From a virus, in IMG/VR virus record IMGVR_UViG_3300025141_000869, positions 1 to 22,057 of that record: DNA of 22,057 nt. One strand, written 5' to 3'. Both the position numbers and the translations under genes were made by a program. Positions within the stretch are counted from its first letter, which is position 1. Every line of letters starts with the position of its first letter. Under the pieces are notes generated by a model. The model was given only the letters and a program-made list of their open reading frames with translations. It was not told the DNA's origin and ran no database searches. Positions 1 through 19,307 of this stretch are shown piece after piece.

Positions 1-1
1 A

Positions 2-469
2 AAAGATCCCTTTTATGATGAAGACAAAGCTTGGGGCGATAAGACAGCTGTAAATGAAGCGTGCCGGATTTCCGCCAAGCCGCGATCGCCTCTGGGAGTC
101 ACGGCAACCGAAATTATAAATGGTGATGTAGATCCATCGCTGCTGCCCGATAAGGTTTTGATTGATTTATATATTGATTTAAGACAGGCGGAAGTAGAGA
201 GTCCTCTTTCGTCGTTGCGCTTGCGTACGCTTAAACAAGAGGCCTACGAGCGGTACCGGAACCTGGGCCCGACTGCGTCCGCGTCCGCTCGCCGCAAGAC
301 TGTTGCACGCTATGTGAATGATACCTACAGGCAGTATATTTATTCTAAGGGCGCGGTCAAGATGCAAAATTTAAATCGAAATTTACTTGACACCGTCGCT
401 CGAACTGGTACAATGGTAACAAGTACCGGTATGGAACTGGCCGGAGGGGGCCCTACTGGCACTTACTAA
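2..469 (+). CDS. Unknown protein, 5'-truncated by window edge
   Basis: The frame is open from base 2 to the TAA at 467-469, so this is the last 155 residues of a gene that begins before the window. I do not recognise the family. The visible part is hydrophilic and rich in Arg, Leu and Ala. A central stretch (about residues 60-115) looks helical and basic, and the tail is Gly/Thr-rich (ends GGGPTGTY). It has no signal peptide, membrane segment or cysteine cluster. It lies 9 bases before the family A polymerase gene. Its 3' end carries a good sigma-70-like promoter (387-414) for that gene. A structural or replication role is equally possible. Confidence 0.75.
   Translation, partial: KDPFYDEDKAWGDKTAVNEACRISAKPRSPLGVTATEIINGDVDPSLLPDKVLIDLYIDLRQAEVESPLSSLRLRTLKQEAYERYRNLGPTASASARRKTVARYVNDTYRQYIYSKGAVKMQNLNRNLLDTVARTGTMVTSTGMELAGGGPTGTY
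387..414 (+). promoter_or_regulatory. Sigma-70-like promoter inside upstream CDS, for the family A polymerase
   Basis: The -35 TTGACA (387-392, 6/6) and -10 TACAAT (409-414, 5/6) are separated by 16 bases. The start point would be near 421, about 58 bases before the TTG start at 479. The 16 bases at 379-394 recur exactly at 1567-1582 around another candidate -35. Both copies are read in frame as NLLDT. Confidence 0.6.
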
Positions 470-478
470 GGGGAAGAG

Positions 479-1666
479 TTGCTTTTTCAGGTATTAGATC
501 ACAAAAAGGATTGTGTTGGCTATTTTGCGGACAATGCTATTAATCCAACACCGCAGTTACCACTCCAAGGGGAGACCTGGGATTACTCTGAACATCTGCC
601 CGGCAAGCAATACGAGATAGCACGCATTTACAGCCACGGAGCCGCCCTAACAGACGTTTGCCCGCCCGAGTTGTGCGAGGAGTGGGACGGTATCAAGAAG
701 ACGCTTAAATCGTGTCTCAAAGCCTTCAATACATCGTGCCTTTCACTTAACGAAAATTGTTTTTATGACGTGCTGCCAGAATATTTTCTCTATGAGTATT
801 TAAATCTCAAGAATAAGATAACCCAGCATGTATTGGACACACATCCGCGTCCGGAGAACTATGATTTTATGTATAATCTTGTAGAGATGCTTTCGGAGAT
901 TCGTCTGCAACCTCTCAACATTGAAATGGATCCAATTAAACATCTTTTAAGCTCTGTGCGCGGAAAGAACTTTTTACGCACCACGCAGACGGTGAAACAC
1001 GTGTGTGACTACAATCCATGGGGTACTGTCACGGGACGTTTGGCAACGAACCCTCATACTTTTCCTATTCTGACAATGAACAAAGAGTTTAGGGGATGCG
1101 TTAAACCCCACAATGATTGGTTTCTGGAATTAGATTTTAACGCTGCTGAACTGCGAACGTTGCTGGCACTCGGAGGCAACCCCCAGCCCCCCAATGATAT
1201 TCATGACTGGAATGTGAGAAATATCTTTCACAATAAATTAACTAGAGAAGAAGCTAAGGTCAAAACGTTTGCGTGGCTCTACTCCGAACGCACCAATAAG
1301 GACCTAGAGCGCCTGTATAGCAAGGATTTGGTACGAAATAAGTACTGGGACGGCTTCAAAATTGAGACTGATTATGGTAGAATAATACCAGATGTGGATG
1401 AACATCGTGCGCTCAATTATGTGGTCCAAAGTACCACGATTGATGTAGTGCACGAACAGGCTTATAAGGTTTATGAGCTCTTAAAGGGGATGAAAAGTAA
1501 GATTGCTTTCTTGATTCATGATGCCGTGTACATTGACCTGGCAGAAGAAGATCGTTATGAAATTCTAAATTTACTTGACACCTTTAAGAATACACGCTAT
1601 GGTGTGTTTAAAGTAAACAACAGCGTTGGGAAAAATCTGGGAGACTTGAAGGAATTAAAATTATGA
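479..1666 (+). CDS. Short family A (Pol I-type) DNA polymerase
   Basis: Template-directed DNA polymerase of the Pol I/T7 family, 395 residues. Visible motifs are a TGR motif (TVTGRLAT, about 183-190), motif A (LELDFNAAELR, catalytic D219), motif B (R256 x3 K260, F264, Y268) and motif C (LIHDAVYID, H347 and D348). Both metal-binding aspartates are present, but the Glu that usually follows the motif C Asp (HDE) is Ala349. The usual 5'-nuclease and 3'-5' exonuclease domains are absent. About 180 residues of unassigned sequence precede the palm, so this is much shorter than typical 600-900 residue members. The TTG start follows an AGGGGA-type ribosome site at 469-474. Its stop overlaps the MazG start as ATGA. 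It may act as a repair, gap-filling or replicative enzyme; a second polymerase lies at 13490-16930. Confidence 0.9.
   Translation: MLFQVLDHKKDCVGYFADNAINPTPQLPLQGETWDYSEHLPGKQYEIARIYSHGAALTDVCPPELCEEWDGIKKTLKSCLKAFNTSCLSLNENCFYDVLPEYFLYEYLNLKNKITQHVLDTHPRPENYDFMYNLVEMLSEIRLQPLNIEMDPIKHLLSSVRGKNFLRTTQTVKHVCDYNPWGTVTGRLATNPHTFPILTMNKEFRGCVKPHNDWFLELDFNAAELRTLLALGGNPQPPNDIHDWNVRNIFHNKLTREEAKVKTFAWLYSERTNKDLERLYSKDLVRNKYWDGFKIETDYGRIIPDVDEHRALNYVVQSTTIDVVHEQAYKVYELLKGMKSKIAFLIHDAVYIDLAEEDRYEILNLLDTFKNTRYGVFKVNNSVGKNLGDLKELKL
1575..1603 (+). promoter_or_regulatory. Possible sigma-70-like promoter inside the polymerase CDS
   Basis: TTGACA (1575-1580), a 17-base spacer and TATGGT (1598-1603, 4/6). 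The -35 is perfect but the -10 is weak. It is reported because its surrounding 16 bases (1567-1582) are identical to those of the 387-414 promoter. It would serve the MazG and FtsZ-like genes. Confidence 0.4.
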
Positions 1667-1980
1667 AAAAAGAATATGACAAGCTCGTGCGTGATAGAAT
1701 TCCTGAGATCATTGAAGAAGCTGGTAAGAGCGCCAGAGTGTTCCAAGTTTCGGGCAATTCGCTTCGGGCATATGCTCTCAAGAAGTTGCGCGAGGAAATA
1801 GAAGAATTTATTGAGAATCCGTGTGCTGAAGAGGCAGCCGATGTGATGGAAATTTTAAATTTTATTTGTCATCGATTAGGAATCCGCGAGACTACGATCC
1901 TCGCAGAGACGCTTTCGAAACGAGTGAAACGCGGTGGCTTTGAGCACGGATTTGTTTTGGATTGGGTTGAGGAAAAGTGA
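1663..1980 (+). CDS. MazG-like nucleoside triphosphate pyrophosphohydrolase
   Basis: A 105-residue all-alpha NTP pyrophosphatase, expected to hydrolyse (d)NTPs or related nucleotides to the monophosphate and PPi. The N terminus (YDKLVRDRIPEII, 5-17) is the signature of the short phosphoribosyl-ATP pyrophosphatase/MazG-like group. The metal-binding pattern is visible as E44xxE47 within REEIEEF and E57xxD60 within AEEAAD. The C-terminal RVKRGGF (87-93) is also typical. The ATG overlaps the polymerase stop (ATGA), with an AAGGA ribosome site at 1649-1653. Its stop overlaps the next GTG, so translation is probably coupled. Phage MazG proteins are proposed to tune nucleotide or alarmone pools; the substrate cannot be told from sequence. 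Confidence 0.88.
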   Translation: MKKEYDKLVRDRIPEIIEEAGKSARVFQVSGNSLRAYALKKLREEIEEFIENPCAEEAADVMEILNFICHRLGIRETTILAETLSKRVKRGGFEHGFVLDWVEEK

Positions 1981-2828
1981 AAATTGTGGGGCTCGGGAAG
2001 GCTGGATGCGGCCTGGCCAAAGCGTTTTCTAAATTCCCTCAGTACGAAACGGTGGGAATTGATTGCGAGAAAGAAGCCGACATCACTATTAAGAAGCGCA
2101 AGAGCCATGAAGAGTATGATACGCATTTCCCCAATCTGAAAAGAAAACTTAAGGCTACAGAGGAGGAAGTGCTTCTGATAACCAGCGGAGTGGGTAAAAT
2201 TTCAGGGGGAGTTTTACGATTGTTGGAACAGTTGCAAAATAATAAAGTTACTGTTCTTTATATTCAGTCGGATCTTTCCTTGGCCAGCGAAGTTCAAAAA
2301 GTACGAGATAAAATTGTGAGTAATGTGTTACAGGAGTACGCCCGATCTGGTCAGCTGGAAGCTGTCTGGATCCTAGAGAATCAACGTGTTGAAAAAGGAA
2401 TTGGCGAAGTCCCCATCATGGGCTATTACGAGGTGCTCAATCAAGCTATCGCGAATATGATTCATATGATTAATGTATTCAAGAATTCTGAACCTGTCAT
2501 TGGAAATTTTATTACCCCCTCAAATCTCAGCCGCATTGCCACTATTGGAATTTTAGACATTGAAGAATCTACAGAAAGATGGTTTTATGACTTGACAAAC
2601 GCACGCGACGTGGTATACTATTACGGTATAAATGAGGCTGAGCTAAGGGACGACGGCACGTTGTTTAAAAAGATTACTACCTACGTGAAGTCAAAACTGG
2701 ATGACAAGATGAATGTTTCTTACGGAGTTTACAAAACCACTTACGATCAGAAATATTGTTATTGCATTAAGTATAGTTCTATGGTACAATCATTTATAGA
2801 ATTGATAGACGATCAGGATATTAGCTGA
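1977..2828 (+). CDS. Divergent FtsZ/tubulin-superfamily protein
   Basis: 283 residues. The order of elements follows the FtsZ/tubulin GTPase fold. A first strand and glycine loop (MKIVGLGKAGCGLA, 1-14) matches the FtsZ GVGGGG start. VGIDCE follows at 26-31. A strand plus degenerate signature loop (LLITSGVGKISGG, 66-78) stands where FtsZ has TAGMGGGTGTG. Next come a V-T-V-L strand (91-94) and VWILENQRV (130-138), matching the FtsZ IVIPNDRLL strand. Then a long helix (150-168) leads to a T7-loop position (GNFITPSNL, 176-184). The G-box is altered and the T7-loop acidic residues needed for GTP hydrolysis are missing. The C-terminal domain (200-283) shows no recognised motif. The GTG start overlaps the MazG stop. 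No close family name can be given; assignment rests on pattern, not alignment. Filament formation, DNA positioning or a non-catalytic role are all inference. Confidence 0.6.
   Translation: MKIVGLGKAGCGLAKAFSKFPQYETVGIDCEKEADITIKKRKSHEEYDTHFPNLKRKLKATEEEVLLITSGVGKISGGVLRLLEQLQNNKVTVLYIQSDLSLASEVQKVRDKIVSNVLQEYARSGQLEAVWILENQRVEKGIGEVPIMGYYEVLNQAIANMIHMINVFKNSEPVIGNFITPSNLSRIATIGILDIEESTERWFYDLTNARDVVYYYGINEAELRDDGTLFKKITTYVKSKLDDKMNVSYGVYKTTYDQKYCYCIKYSSMVQSFIELIDDQDIS
2592..2619 (+). promoter_or_regulatory. Strong sigma-70-like promoter inside the FtsZ-like CDS, for the SSB gene
   Basis: TTGACA (2592-2597, 6/6), a 16-base spacer, then TATACT (2614-2619, 5/6). The start point would be near 2626, giving a leader of roughly 236 bases for the SSB gene that contains the hairpin at 2809-2832. 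The 15 bases at 2583-2597 recur exactly at 13383-13397 in front of another candidate promoter. Confidence 0.65.
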
Positions 2829-2839
2829 TCGTACTCTAA
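2809..2839 (+). promoter_or_regulatory. Hairpin / possible pseudoknot just upstream of the SSB gene
   Basis: A perfect 8-base inverted repeat, ACGATCAG (2809-2816) and CTGATCGT (2825-2832), with an 8-base loop spans the stop codon of the FtsZ-like gene. No T-run follows, so it is not an intrinsic terminator. The loop 3' half TTAG (2821-2824) could pair with CTAA (2836-2839) to make a small pseudoknot, although the 3-base connecting loop is sterically tight. Unstructured A-rich sequence then leads to the ribosome site at 2851. Confidence 0.45.
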
Positions 2840-2850
2840 CCCAACTATGA

Positions 2851-2855
2851 AAGGA
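2851..2855 (+). promoter_or_regulatory. Ribosome binding site that fixes the SSB start
   Basis: AAGGA, six bases before ATG 2862. The alternative in-frame ATG at 2847 has no purine-rich site in front of it and would itself overlap this one. Confidence 0.75.
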
Positions 2856-2861
2856 AACAAA

Positions 2862-3641
2862 ATGGGTATTAACTTAGACAAGATGAGAGAGAAGCTCTCG
2901 TCACTACGCGGAGACGGAAACTCCTCAAATGACACTTTCTGGCGCCCCGAGGATGGGGACCAGACTATTCGAATCGTTCCGACGGCGGATGGAGATCCCT
3001 TCAAGGAGATGTGGTTCCATTACAATGTCGAGAAGGGCGGTTTTTTGTGCCCCAAGCGCAACTACAGTGACGAGTGTCCTGTGTGTGAGTTCGCCTCACA
3101 ACTGTGGCGCGAGGGGGTCGATAACAATGATGATCATTGTAAGAAGACCGCAAAGTCTCTCTTTGTGAGACAGCGTTTCTTCAGTCCCGTGATGGTTCGC
3201 GGCGAAGAAGAGCGCGGCGTGCGTGTATGGGGTTACGGCAAGACTGCCTATGAGAACCTCCTGACACTCGTGCTCAATCCCGAGTATGGTGATATTACCG
3301 ATACTGAGACTGGCACGGATCTTCAGATGACCTACGGAAAGCCTCCTGGCGCTTCCTTCCCTCAGACGAAGCTCGTACCTCGTCGACGGTCCTCACCTCT
3401 CTGTGATGACCTGACGCCTGACAAGTGCGCTGAGTTGCTCGATAGCATTCCAGATTTTACTGGCTTGTTTGAGCGCAAGACGACTGCCGACGTGCAGACC
3501 ATCCTCGACAATTTCGTCAACTCTCAGGTTGACGATCCCGAGAAGGTCAGCACCGAGACAGAGCGCTATGGTAAGACGAACAACACCGAAAGCGACACCA
3601 ACGCTGTTGATCAGGCTTTCGCAGAGCTAGGGTCTCTTTAA
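2862..3641 (+). CDS. gp32-like single-stranded DNA-binding protein
   Basis: 259 residues. It coats ssDNA at replication forks and recombination intermediates and coordinates recombinase, helicase and polymerase, as in the T4 family. The core begins at FWRPEDGDQTIRI (about 26-38). A zinc site of the T4 gp32 kind is visible: H53, C63, C72 and C75 in the spacing H-x9-C-x8-C-x2-C, close to T4's H-x12-C-x9-C-x2-C. Aromatic/basic strands follow (LFVRQRFFSPV, about 103-113). The last 50 residues are polar and net acidic, as in the T4 protein-interaction tail. ATG 2862 is chosen over 2847 because AAGGA lies six bases upstream of it. Expression may be driven from 2592-2619 and controlled by the hairpin at 2809-2832. 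Confidence 0.92.
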   Translation: MGINLDKMREKLSSLRGDGNSSNDTFWRPEDGDQTIRIVPTADGDPFKEMWFHYNVEKGGFLCPKRNYSDECPVCEFASQLWREGVDNNDDHCKKTAKSLFVRQRFFSPVMVRGEEERGVRVWGYGKTAYENLLTLVLNPEYGDITDTETGTDLQMTYGKPPGASFPQTKLVPRRRSSPLCDDLTPDKCAELLDSIPDFTGLFERKTTADVQTILDNFVNSQVDDPEKVSTETERYGKTNNTESDTNAVDQAFAELGSL

Positions 3642-3699
3642 ATCCCCCCCACAGGGAGGCACAGGGTTATCAGGTGTCTCATATTAGAAAGGAGTAGTT

Positions 3700-3888
3700 A
3701 TGACTACTGACAAGAATCGTTTAGATGAGTTAATTGATCTTTTAGAAAACGCTCGCGACGACCACGAGAAGTTTTTTGAGCGCGGCAACAATGCCGCGGG
3801 AACGCGAGTCCGAAAGGCCCTGCAGGAGGTGAAGAACCTCGCTCAGGAACTGCGAGTTGAGGTTCAAGAAGCTAAGAACGCGGACTGA
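3700..3888 (+). CDS. Histone H1-like (Hc1-family) mini-protein
   Basis: 62 residues, almost wholly helical. The segment KFFERGNNAAGTRVRKALQ followed by EVKNLAQELR (about 24-52) matches the conserved core of the bacterial histone H1-like Hc1 family. That family is characterised by a helix, a G-N-x-A-A-G-T-R turn and a second helix. The long Lys/Ala-rich DNA-condensing tail of chlamydial Hc1 is absent, and the protein is near neutral to acidic, so strong DNA compaction is unlikely. A strong ribosome site (AAAGGAG, 3688-3694) precedes the ATG. It sits between the SSB and an unknown gene in a replication cluster. A role in nucleoid or phage DNA organisation is inference. Confidence 0.75.
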   Translation: MTTDKNRLDELIDLLENARDDHEKFFERGNNAAGTRVRKALQEVKNLAQELRVEVQEAKNAD

Positions 3889-3915
3889 CTTTGGCTTTGA
3901 TGAAAGGATAGAAAA

Positions 3916-4401
3916 ATGGGAACAATTGTTGATGCGCTTCGAGAGTTTAGTGTAAGTGAAGATTCCTTTGTGAATTTGAACTACGGAGCCACGGTTGAAG
4001 TGTGGCATATTACAGATGACTATATTAGTACTGCACTTGTTGAGACCGATACGGCTTCAATGCTTGCCGCGCTCTTGGCTGCCAAGACACTTACCGTGTA
4101 TTCGCGCTGGGATGAGAACATCCTAGAAGAGATGCGCAGTAATGGTCTCTTGGACGACTATGACCGGGAAGACTGGTTTGAGGGATACCTTACCGAAACC
4201 ATTCACAATGCTGCATATGAGTATGATCTTTTGAGTGTAACCACAGAGAAATATGATAATAAGAGAGGCGCATGCGCTGTAGAGTCGAGCATTAAAATTC
4301 CCGTGAGTGAAGTGCTTGAACTTGGAGACGTCGCAGATGATCTCTTTGCTGGGTGGAACGTATCCGTTCGCACTAAAAGCGGTGTTTTGACACTGGAGTA
4401 G
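3916..4401 (+). CDS. Unknown 161-residue acidic protein
   Basis: Not recognised. The protein is acidic and rich in Asp/Glu, with alternating predicted strands and helices. It shows no membrane segment, signal peptide, cysteine cluster or nucleotide-binding loop. Aromatic residues cluster in the middle (DYDREDWFEGYL, about 79-90). AAGGA (3904-3908) lies seven bases before the ATG. The gene is between the Hc1-like mini-protein and a tiny membrane protein, upstream of recA/uvsX, so it is probably transcribed with the replication genes. Confidence 0.8.
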   Translation: MGTIVDALREFSVSEDSFVNLNYGATVEVWHITDDYISTALVETDTASMLAALLAAKTLTVYSRWDENILEEMRSNGLLDDYDREDWFEGYLTETIHNAAYEYDLLSVTTEKYDNKRGACAVESSIKIPVSEVLELGDVADDLFAGWNVSVRTKSGVLTLE

Positions 4402-4406
4402 TGGTA

Positions 4407-4562
4407 ATGGTGTGGCTCTGGATAGGTTTGGTTTTTTTGTTTGTTCTCGTGTTAGGAATAAGAGAGGACGTTAAAGCAATTGGCGATCAAGTGAGTATGC
4501 TACAAACAGATTTTATCTCAGAGATTTCTGAAAAATATGGAGACTCTCATGGCCAAGAGTAA
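4407..4562 (+). CDS. Small single-pass membrane protein (51 aa)
   Basis: Reading ATG 4407 to TAA 4560-4562 gives 51 residues. Residues 2-18 (VWLWIGLVFLFVLVLGI) form one hydrophobic membrane helix, followed by a short polar amphipathic tail. GGAG at 4395-4398 is eight bases before the ATG, and the gene starts six bases after the upstream stop. Its 3' end overlaps the recombinase gene by 14 bases, which favours coupled translation. The N-terminal anchor with a cytoplasmic helix resembles small phage accessory membrane proteins, but no function can be assigned. Confidence 0.6.
   Translation: MVWLWIGLVFLFVLVLGIREDVKAIGDQVSMLQTDFISEISEKYGDSHGQE
4539..4542 (+). promoter_or_regulatory. Ribosome binding site that fixes the recombinase start
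   Basis: GGAG with a six-base spacer to ATG 4549. The in-frame ATG at 4537 lacks a comparable site and overlaps this one. Confidence 0.65.
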
Positions 4563-5670
4563 ATCAAAGGCTGGGAAAATCTCAATTGATGGTTTGAGAA
4601 CTCTTATCAATAAGACATCTGGCTTGGAGGTTGCTCACAACCTCAACGAAGCTAACCCCACTGAAGTAAAAGAATGGATTCCAACTGGCTCACGCTGGTT
4701 GGATTCTATTGTTTGCAGGGGGCAGCTTGGCGGCATTCCTGTCGGCAAGTTTACTGAGATTGCTGGCTTGGAGTCAACCGGCAAATCTTTTATGGCCGCG
4801 CAGATTGCAGGGAATGCCCAGAAGATGGGGATGAATGTTATCTATATGGATTCTGAATCAGCGATTGACCCAGGCTTCCTTGAGCGCGCCGGATGCAATA
4901 TAAACGAACTCATTTATGTTCAGGCCCAGTCGGTTGAACATGTACTAGAAACTGTTGAAAACGTTTTGAAGTCAGGAGCAGAAAGAACCCTGTTCATCTG
5001 GGACTCCTTGGCTATGACTCCAACCGTTACAGATGTGGAAGGGGACTTCAATCCTCAATCCACCATGGCAATGAAGGCGCGCATACTTTCGAAGGGAATG
5101 TCCAAGCTGACAATTCCTATTGCGAATACCAAGTCCGCCTTCCTGGTTCTCAACCAGTTGAAGACCAACATCCCACAAGGACCAAATGCTCGCATCGTTG
5201 CTATGACGACGCCCTTCATCACCCCTGGCGGGAAGGCCATGCATTATGTATATTCTCTGCGCGTGTGGCTCACGGGACGCAAGGCCAAGTCTGCTTTCAT
5301 CGAGGATGAGAGCGGCTTCCGCATCGGCTCCGAGGTGAAGGTCAAACTTGAGAAGTCTCGCTTCGGAACGCAGGGACGCAACTGTGCGTTCAAGATTCTA
5401 TGGGGGACTGATGCAGTGGGTATTCAGGACCGAGAGAGTTGGCTGGAAGCCATCAAGGGCTCCGACAATCTTAAGCAAGCAGGCGCATGGTTTTCCCTGG
5501 TCCATAAGGATGGAACCCAAGAGAAGTTCCAGAGCGCTCATTGGCTTACTAAACTGGAAGACGAGAAGTTCAAGAACCGAGTGTTCGAGATCATGGATGA
5601 AGAGATCATTCGTAAGTTTGACACGCGCGAGGGTAGTGCCGAGGATTTCTACGACGTAGATAAAGAATAA
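4549..5670 (+). CDS. RecA/UvsX-like recombinase
   Basis: 373-residue ATP-dependent strand-exchange protein for recombination-dependent replication and repair. The Walker A loop is GLESTGKS (73-80). The RecA-type catalytic segment DSESAIDP (101-108) has Glu103 in the position of E. coli RecA Glu96. The Walker B strand TLFIWDS ends near D152. A loop before the ssDNA-contact region (QLKTN) and the FITPGGKA segment (about 224-231) are typical of phage and bacterial RecA. The C-terminal part (about 290-373) is charged. ATG 4549 is preferred to 4537 on ribosome-site spacing. It follows the SSB and precedes the 5'-3' exonuclease and helicase, matching the T4 recombination-replication logic. UvsX rather than bacterial RecA is suggested by neighbours and divergence. 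Confidence 0.93.
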   Translation: MAKSKSKAGKISIDGLRTLINKTSGLEVAHNLNEANPTEVKEWIPTGSRWLDSIVCRGQLGGIPVGKFTEIAGLESTGKSFMAAQIAGNAQKMGMNVIYMDSESAIDPGFLERAGCNINELIYVQAQSVEHVLETVENVLKSGAERTLFIWDSLAMTPTVTDVEGDFNPQSTMAMKARILSKGMSKLTIPIANTKSAFLVLNQLKTNIPQGPNARIVAMTTPFITPGGKAMHYVYSLRVWLTGRKAKSAFIEDESGFRIGSEVKVKLEKSRFGTQGRNCAFKILWGTDAVGIQDRESWLEAIKGSDNLKQAGAWFSLVHKDGTQEKFQSAHWLTKLEDEKFKNRVFEIMDEEIIRKFDTREGSAEDFYDVDKE

Positions 5671-5707
5671 GACTATTTACTATACCCTCTTAGAAGGACT
5701 TTTATAG

Positions 5708-6334
5708 ATGACATCTTATTCTAGTTTCCCACAGCACCAATTAATTACAGAGAGCTGGCGTCGCCATTTGGCTGAGGACGATCAGCCGAATCCTGAAGAG
5801 CTAGCTCAGGCCGGCCAGGATGCCCTCGAAGAACTGGGCGAAGAGGGGGTCTTGGCAGCTGTTGCTGATCTGTCCCCTGAGATTCAAGCAAAGATCGACG
5901 AGGCCGCCGAAGCGATGGTGGCCGAGCTCGATACGCAACTTAACGAAACACCGGAACCATCTTCCCTCGAGCCAACTTGGGTTCAGCGAGGCCACGCGCC
6001 ACACCCGTCGTCATCGCGCGGAGAAGCTGCAGCAGCCGCGAAGGAGGCCTCTCGCGAATCCATCATGACCGGGGCCTGGATCGGCATGATTGGAGGACCG
6101 CTCGCGGCCCTCGTGATGGCATCCAAGGGGCTGCTCGGGGCCACCACCACGGGGGGAGCCGCGATGGGCATGCTCGGCGGTGGTATCGCCGGCTTCCACG
6201 GCGGCATGCTCGCGGGGGCCATGGTGGCGGCTGTGGTTTTGAAAGTCCAGCAGAAGCTCGGTGATCCAGATTTAACATCCACTATCGTCACGAAGCCCGT
6301 CGGGAAGCCCGACGCCTGGGAAGACGAAATCTAG
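5708..6334 (+). CDS. Glycine-zipper membrane protein with N-terminal LITE-S motif
   Basis: 208 residues, function unknown. Residues 1-22 contain QLITESWRRHLAE; an acidic helical region follows (25-80), then a Pro/Ser/His linker (81-104). The last third (about 118-180) is an Ala/Gly-rich double hydrophobic segment with glycine-zipper spacing (GGAAMGMLGGG, 149-159), predicted to form a membrane hairpin. The gene is markedly more GC-rich than its neighbours in this part, largely because of Gly/Ala codons. The I-T-E followed by S at 13-16 fits the T4 prohead-protease cleavage consensus ([L/I]-x-E before A/G/S). That could mean an internal virion protein that inserts in the host membrane on infection. 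A holin-like or immunity role is an alternative. AAGGA at 5694-5698 supports the ATG. Confidence 0.75.
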   Translation: MTSYSSFPQHQLITESWRRHLAEDDQPNPEELAQAGQDALEELGEEGVLAAVADLSPEIQAKIDEAAEAMVAELDTQLNETPEPSSLEPTWVQRGHAPHPSSSRGEAAAAAKEASRESIMTGAWIGMIGGPLAALVMASKGLLGATTTGGAAMGMLGGGIAGFHGGMLAGAMVAAVVLKVQQKLGDPDLTSTIVTKPVGKPDAWEDEI

Positions 6335-17648: not shown

Positions 17649-18277
17649 GAGGTTTTCATGCCGAACTTATCAAAGAAAGATTTAAAGAAATTGTAGAAGG
17701 AAAGGGCTATGGCTTTTTCGATGGGGGGAAACCCCATAACGTAAATATAATTGGAGTGCGCAATTCTAATGGGCGCCCCAATTACTTTGACGATATGTTG
17801 CTGGTGGTCTATCGCGACACTCACAAGAGGTGGCTCGTGGATTCCTATCAGCTAACCACAGACCCCGGCTTTTACTGGATGAAGAAACCAATGAATGTGG
17901 ATGGGACTGCCATCCTCTGTCCGGGCCAGTACCGAGGGGTCTATAGGGTCTCTAAGCATCGGGGTAAATATGACGCGTTGTGTCAGCGGGGAGGGCACGT
18001 TACTGTATGGAGAGATCCGAATCGCGATCTTCAACATGACATGGATGACGCTACGAAAGACACAGGTAGCTTCGGGATCAATATCCACAAGGGAGGTAGA
18101 AACTCATCGCGAGTGGAGAAGTACAGCGCTGGTTGTCAAGTATTTAAGAACGATGGGGATTTCAAAGACTTCATGGTGACGATGAATTCCGCCCGGCGCG
18201 CCTTTGGTAACAGTTTCACATACACGTTGCTCGAAAGCTCAGACCTAGAGTCGGGGGTAGAGGATGACAAGAATTAA
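17636..18277 (+). CDS. Possible L,D-transpeptidase-like / peptidoglycan-active protein
   Basis: 213 residues. Residues 146-168 hold FGINIHKGG, then SAGCQ: a His (H151) followed 13 residues later by S164-x-G-C167. This is the spacing pattern of the YkuD-type L,D-transpeptidase active site (H, then S-x-G-C). Upstream strands (LLVVYRDTHKRWLVDSYQL, about 55-73; GQYRGVYRV, 97-105) suit the beta-rich fold. No signal peptide or membrane helix is seen. A lytic or cell-wall-modifying enzyme is inferred by motif only. It might act as an endolysin, which would be oddly placed among nucleotide-metabolism genes. The ATG at 17636 is chosen for its ribosome site. It overlaps the next gene by 14 bases. Confidence 0.6.
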   Translation: MSRIRGFHAELIKERFKEIVEGKGYGFFDGGKPHNVNIIGVRNSNGRPNYFDDMLLVVYRDTHKRWLVDSYQLTTDPGFYWMKKPMNVDGTAILCPGQYRGVYRVSKHRGKYDALCQRGGHVTVWRDPNRDLQHDMDDATKDTGSFGINIHKGGRNSSRVEKYSAGCQVFKNDGDFKDFMVTMNSARRAFGNSFTYTLLESSDLESGVEDDKN

Positions 18278-19307
18278 AGGACATGCAGCAAAGGGGCTCA
18301 CGTATGATGATGTACTGCTGGTCCCTCAGTATTCGGATATTAAGAGTCGCCTAGAAATTAACATAGGAAATACTTTTCGCGGCCCCCATGCAACCGTAAT
18401 GTTGGATCTACCTATCATCGCGAGTCCTATGGACACGGTGTCGGAATCCGAAATGGGCGTGTCCATGTGGAAACTTGGAGGGCTAGCCGTTATTCATCGC
18501 TACAATGCAATTGCGAAGCAGGCAGCTTTGGTGGACCAGGTGATCGTCGGAGCAAATGCCAATGTGGCCGCAGCCATAGGTGCTTCTGGTGACTATTTAG
18601 ATAGAGCACGAGCCCTGTATGATGCGGGCACGCGCATTCTGTGTATTGATGTGGCGCATGGACATCACGTTCATGTGAAGAACGCTCTCCACGAATTGCG
18701 TAGAGTATTCTCTAATACGATCCACATCATGGCGGGCAACATTGCTACTAAGGAGGGTTATGATGACTTGGTCGATTGGGGAGCCGACAGTGTGCGCTGC
18801 AATATTGGCGGCGGTTCTATTTGTTCAACTCGGATTCAGACTGGCCACGGTGTCCCGGGGCTTCAGACAATATTGGATTGCGCGGAAGCAGGAAGGAAAG
18901 TACCGATTATTGCCGACGGAGGAATTAGGAGTTCCGGAGATATTGTCAAGGCTTTGGCGGCTGGCGCTGACTTCGTTATGCTTGGTTCTGTGCTTGCAGG
19001 TACTGATGAAACTCCTGGCGACGTAATCAATACGCGACAGGGGAAGTTTAAAGCTTACCGCGGAATGGCCAGCAAGGATGCGCAGGTTGAGTGGCGTGGC
19101 AAGACTGCGTCCCTAGAAGGTATTGCGACAACGGTGCCCTCTAAAGGTCCTGTAGCTGGTGTCTTGGACGAGTTGGCCCGCGGCATTCGGAGCGGCCTTT
19201 CCTACAGTGGTGCTCGAAGTGTGCGAGAGCTACAACAAAAGGCGCGCTTCATGAGACAAACTAGTAGCGGCCACGTAGAGGGTACCACTCACATATTAAA
19301 ACGATGA
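18264..19307 (+). CDS. GMP reductase / IMP dehydrogenase family enzyme
   Basis: 347-residue TIM-barrel enzyme of purine metabolism, with no CBS (Bateman) domains. [12 protein letters not shown] (10-21) and [11 protein letters not shown] (51-61) are family signatures. The catalytic loop GGGSICSTR (182-190) has C187 and T189. DGG at 218-220 and YRGMAS (265-270) bind the phosphate. In the flap, IMP dehydrogenase has a catalytic Arg, but here [13 protein letters not shown] (284-296) has none and resembles GMP reductase (EGKT...RGP), with E285 in the position of its catalytic Glu. GMP reductase (GMP to IMP, NADPH-dependent) is therefore favoured, though not proven. The length (about 345) also fits. 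The last codons overlap the next start (ATGA). Confidence 0.85.

Follow-up and report, generated by a model that had tools for sequence, protein, structure and literature searches.

The window analysed here, a 22,057-nt stretch of DNA covering positions 1 to 22,057 of IMG/VR virus record IMGVR_UViG_3300025141_000869, encodes on its plus strand a 283-residue protein with a GTG start (1977–2828), for which we use the name FtsZL. A MazG-like gene (1663–1980, plus strand) overlaps the FtsZL start by 4 nt (GTGA), making translational coupling of the two likely, and a gene for a gp32-type single-strand DNA-binding protein (SSB; 2847–3641, plus strand; Pfam gp32, 3e-14) begins 18 nt after the end of FtsZL. 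The initial annotation, which described FtsZL as an FtsZ/tubulin relative coupled to MazG and lying directly before SSB, was right about this placement, given the overlap and the SSB reading frame from 2847. The gene order PolA-MazG-FtsZL-SSB-Hc1-like-UvsX is kept in nearly all loci of the clade. A ribonucleotide reductase and a protein of the DNA polymerase III alpha type are among the other products of the window. Directly after SSB lies a gene (3700–3888) for a 62-aa histone H1-like protein of the Hc1 family (Pfam 4e-22), present in most clade loci. Elsewhere in the window, 18264–19307 encodes an IMP dehydrogenase/GMP reductase-type protein (Pfam 6e-101), a phage-encoded guanine-nucleotide gene. 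Loci L178, L193, L201 and L202 carry one or more extra genes between FtsZL and SSB.

Searches of IMG/VR located 44 homologous places at first and then 168. The set of distinct full-length FtsZL homologues, the window protein included, numbers 81, and all conservation counts refer to these members; relatives share 53–96% identity with the window protein. With SSB as an independent bait, FtsZL was found at 70 of the 70 loci that had enough upstream DNA. Median dN/dS for FtsZL, with DNA-constrained segments left out, is 0.07. FtsZL is under purifying selection and, given this value together with its presence at every SSB-bait locus, is not a decaying gene. No homologues were found in cultured phages or in the 84,980 bacterial and archaeal genomes of the GTDB collection, and no FtsZL-like gene lies 5' of SSB in Microcystis phage Mel-JY01, Flavobacterium phage immuto, Bacillus phage SP8 or LR756508. 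Contigs of 112–194 kb are among those of the clade, the largest carrying a terminase and five tRNAs.

Predicted structures indicate that FtsZL is very probably a highly divergent member of the FtsZ/tubulin superfamily by fold. Template-free AlphaFold2 gave the full two-domain topology both for the window protein (pLDDT 83, pTM 0.83) and for a 56%-identical relative with a 62-sequence alignment (pLDDT 89, pTM 0.89), whose mean pLDDT was at least 85.9 in all five models. In Foldseek searches against the PDB, the top 50 matches of both models were exclusively FtsZ, TubZ and CetZ; FtsZ was the best match of the window-protein model, across both domains (7e-12), TubZ was the best match of the relative's model (3e-12), and the best viral match was a phage protein named FtsZ (9e-11). 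The predicted models join a GTPase domain to a C-terminal domain (2571–2777, plus strand; strands at residues 199–202, 211–219, 246–254 and 260–267, helix at 228–240) through the core helix H7, in the element order S1-H1-S2 ... S3-T4 ... S4-H4-S5-H6-H7-T7-S7, then S8-H10-S9-S10. This order suggests that FtsZL has neither a T3 loop nor a counterpart of the FtsZ H9 segment, which would account for its small size. Structure prediction therefore supports the proposed FtsZ/tubulin relationship, with the expected fold over both domains and no unrelated Rossmann fold. The profile searches by which the same proposal could be checked bore it out in part: HHalign against seven PhuZ sequences gave 62% (E 8e-5) over 92 columns, T1 to T4, on a yardstick of 88% for PhuZ against FtsZ, but HHalign against a small FtsZ alignment of seven sequences gave no match. 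Pfam Tubulin (PF00091) matched 3 of 34 members below its curated cut-off (best E 0.011), a cut-off that is a detection criterion and not a defining property of the fold. The family profile had no sequence match among PDB chains. Sequence-only support for superfamily membership is thus weak.

Residue equivalences for the nucleotide-site loops, all on the plus strand, were taken from element order and motif spacing rather than from residue-level structural alignment. The glycine-rich loop that had been noted at residues 5–14 (GLGKAGCGLA) is there, and its T1 portion, GLGKAGCG (residues 5–12; 1989–2012), follows the family pattern G-L-G-x-A-G-(C)-(N), with G5, G7 and G10 invariant. D29, at the T2 position (2061–2063), is also invariant. 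By order of elements, the place of T3 would be taken by HEEYDTHFPN (residues 44–53; 2106–2135), in which H44, E45, Y47 and P52 are conserved and the T3 glycines (FtsZ GLGAGANPE) are absent. The degenerate signature loop was likewise correctly read as TSGVGKISGG (residues 69–78); sequence comparison puts the T4 signature position at GVGKISGG (71–78; 2187–2210), and the alteration is family-wide, with GxGx(I/V)SG(G/A) standing in for the canonical GGGTG(S/T)G. After T5, E105 (2289–2291) is a glutamate in 79 of 81 members and may be equivalent to FtsZ E138. A strand followed by N-x-R had been described at residues 130–137; VWILENQR occupies this position and its T6 asparagine, N135 (2379–2381), is conserved in 78 of 81 members, but R137 is found in only 10. 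Helix H7 (residues 150–169; 2424–2483), delimited from the predicted structure and from conservation, contains the invariant residues Y150, N155, N160, H163 and M164; conservation in FtsZL is strongest in H4, H7 and S9.

The T7 loop also lies where it had been placed (GNFITPSNL, residues 176–184). In full it reads GNFITPSNLSR (176–186; 2502–2534), has the family pattern G-N-(F/Y)-I-x-P-S-x-(L/I)-S-R and in the window protein is free of acids. The claim that the T7 acids are missing is borne out for the two catalytic positions, 179 and 182 when numbered from the shared N, which are non-acidic in all 81 members; the neighbouring position 183, asparagine in the window protein, is however acidic in 55 members, and 17 members have no acid anywhere in 176–186. 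A good part of the nucleotide pocket thus seems preserved, whereas the catalytic acidic pair is gone. To judge from its T4 signature and T7 acids, FtsZL does not appear to be a canonical polymerising GTPase of the FtsZ, TubZ or PhuZ kind.

FtsZL differs from each of the known tubulins that it resembles. At about 10–15% identity to FtsZ, it is not alignable to it by sequence, is shorter, and lacks GGGTGTG, the NxDFxD T7 loop, T3, and the C-terminal linker and peptide. TubZ belongs to the type III partition systems of plasmids and phages, whereas FtsZL has different catalytic loops and is adjoined by MazG and SSB, with no TubR-like neighbour: neither an adaptor gene nor a centromere-like repeat turned up beside it, and positions 1–6000 of the window contain no TubC-like iterons or repeated iteron cluster. 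PhuZ shares with FtsZL a phage origin and a compact tubulin fold, and HHalign aligns the two over the T1–T4 region at 62%. However, PhuZ of phiKZ-like nucleus-forming phages keeps a GGGSGS-type T4, the T3 glycines and a T7 LDxxD in which D187 and D190 are invariant, and FtsZL does not; PhuZ phages also carry multi-subunit RNA polymerases, of which the beta subunit (PF00562) is absent from three 112–194 kb clade contigs that are possibly incomplete. The FtsZ of N. maritimus (Nmar_1262) is degenerate like FtsZL: it has neither the GTP motif nor the T7 loop and fails to form polymers (PMC3684127), but it is a cellular thaumarchaeal gene.

We tentatively propose, with a confidence that falls somewhat short of even, that FtsZL is a non-hydrolysing phage "pseudo-FtsZ" that forms a static scaffold made together with replication proteins. 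This reading draws on the lack of T7 acids, the strong selection, the position in a replication block and the precedent of PhuZ T7 mutants: PhuZ D190A needs GTP to polymerise and its filaments are stable and non-dynamic (PMC4244570), and the D198A mutant of phage RAY PhuZ polymerises in vivo at every expression level tested (PMC10299810). With the T1 glycines, N135, Y150 and N155 of H7, and E105 kept, FtsZL would still hold guanine nucleotide, and it could not complete the hydrolysis site of a neighbouring subunit. Subunits assembling head to tail would then build stable filaments without dynamics, or short oligomers, in the manner of the PhuZ T7-aspartate mutants. A scaffold produced alongside the replication proteins would arrange or hold in place these proteins or the phage DNA under replication, a role other than that of pushing cargo. 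Counting against a static scaffold, the frequently acidic position 183 could replace the lost acids, and FtsZL has no adaptor gene or centromere-like repeat beside it.

The failure of N. maritimus FtsZ to polymerise makes loss of assembly a serious alternative. FtsZL may have given up its polymer function and, bound to nucleotide as a monomer or dimer, act as a switch or adaptor with MazG or SSB, an explanation we hold to be unlikely but the most credible of those competing with a static scaffold. The overlap with MazG and the fixed place before SSB fit it, as do the degenerate T3 and T4 and the N. maritimus precedent (PMC3684127); a simple monomer, however, would have no need of conserved T1 and T7/S9, which mark opposite ends of the axis along which a protofilament would be expected to run. 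Slightly less probable, in our estimation, is a decoy or poison that binds or caps filaments of host FtsZ and stops division during infection. The initial annotation had suggested inhibition of host FtsZ, along with DNA positioning, as possible functions. Loss of T7 is the kind of change that gives dominant-negative FtsZ mutants, and FtsZL shows a loss of this type. Six large clade contigs contain no second, canonical tubulin over the Pfam cut-off, so host FtsZ would be the only likely partner of FtsZL besides itself. Its low identity to FtsZ, with no recognisable FtsZ interface sequence, speaks against such a decoy, as does conservation that peaks in H4, H7 and S9 and not on an FtsZ-mimicking face, and FtsZL sits in a replication block rather than among host-takeover genes.

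It strikes us as improbable that FtsZL is instead a phage tubulin that remains active and dynamic because its catalytic site has been rearranged to work with E183 or a different acid: the acid shared by 55 members at position 183 favours this, but the window protein and 25 others lack it, and the members devoid of any acid in the loop argue further against it. We give very little credence to an NAD(P)-binding Rossmann protein unrelated to tubulin. Pfam TrkA_N does match 22 of 34 members (best 1.5e-5), but each match covers a short beta-alpha-beta GxG stretch, which lies at 3–34 or 65–100 depending on the member. The whole predicted fold matches FtsZ and TubZ, and H7 and the C-terminal domain are absent from Rossmann dehydrogenases; with the fold search in disagreement, we rejected this identity.

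The phage tubulins described in the literature consulted are dynamic GTPases, belonging either to nucleus-forming jumbo phages or to partition systems of a plasmid-like type, and the FtsZL clade is a different, widely sampled group of uncultured phages. If the proposal of a static scaffold is true, phage replication has put the FtsZ fold to a new use that does without its cytomotive dynamics. The family poses a testable question, namely whether a natural "T7-dead" FtsZ forms static filaments, poisons host FtsZ or acts on its own.

The 3' third of FtsZL overlaps a set of putative regulatory elements on the plus strand. Promoter-like site 1 (2592–2619; TTGACA-16-TATACT, with TG before the second hexamer) is nearly invariant as DNA in the 81 sequences, and synonymous differences at 2577–2621 are 0.54 of expectation. 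Around promoter-like site 2 (2762–2790; TTGCAT-17-TACAAT with TGG) they fall to 0.40 of expectation (2745–2789), against ~1.1 elsewhere in FtsZL. Both sites are consensus-like and presumably act as sigma70-type promoters driving SSB, and the operon seems to have several promoters inside reading frames. Downstream of them, a covarying hairpin, ACGATCAG-GATATTAG-CTGATCGT (2809–2832), spans the FtsZL stop and ends 14 nt before the SSB ATG. Six of its 8 pairs have changes on both sides and 99.4% of cells are paired; none of 500 shuffles covaried as well, and the folding z is −3.1. A conserved TAACCC follows the hairpin, for which Rfam gave no match.

In L034, L040 and L110, where a further gene separates FtsZL from SSB, the promoter-like site and the hairpin stay before SSB, and the FtsZL end has neither the hairpin nor the DDQDIS tail. 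Because they are located with SSB in these three loci, comparison of the loci assigns the promoter-like sites and the hairpin to SSB. Since these elements overlap the end of the gene, the DDQDIS tail and part of the conservation of the "invariant" YYYGI and QKYCYC motifs are attributable, on the same comparison, to DNA or RNA constraint, a warning that "invariant" motifs of phage proteins can be regulatory DNA. For this reason we rejected the idea that the acidic DDQDIS tail is a peptide with a function of its own or one resembling the SSB tip, the tail being gone where the hairpin has stayed with SSB. Stop recoding, with TAG read as Gln in the eight loci that have DD*DI, was also rejected: the change is a compensatory hairpin partner, and the reading frame terminates at this point.

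The hairpin contains G-U pairs in a few members, which makes a structure acting as RNA more likely than a palindromic DNA operator. By analogy with T4 gene 32, which has a leader RNA structure overlapping the upstream ORF (PMC535899), the hairpin is a candidate autoregulatory leader of SSB. The two have in common a folded RNA closely 5' of a gp32-type gene that overlaps the upstream ORF; the element here differs in being a simple 8-bp hairpin of unrelated sequence, with no pseudoknot seen. Phage tubulins and degenerate FtsZ proteins are already known, and what is new is a phage tubulin/degenerate-FtsZ variant with an overlapping regulatory region. The fullest account would make FtsZL an undescribed branch of the FtsZ/tubulin superfamily that serves as a core replication-block protein in a large phage clade without nucleus-type signs, forms a non-hydrolysing, permanent DNA scaffold, and has a gene that doubles as the promoter and RNA-leader region of SSB; taken as a whole, we regard this as possible but doubtful.

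Synonymous differences are also low (0.66) at 2895–2939, near the start of the SSB gene. Within PolA, synonymous dips at 1343–1387 and 1559–1603 lie over promoter-like sites at 1355–1383 and 1575–1603.
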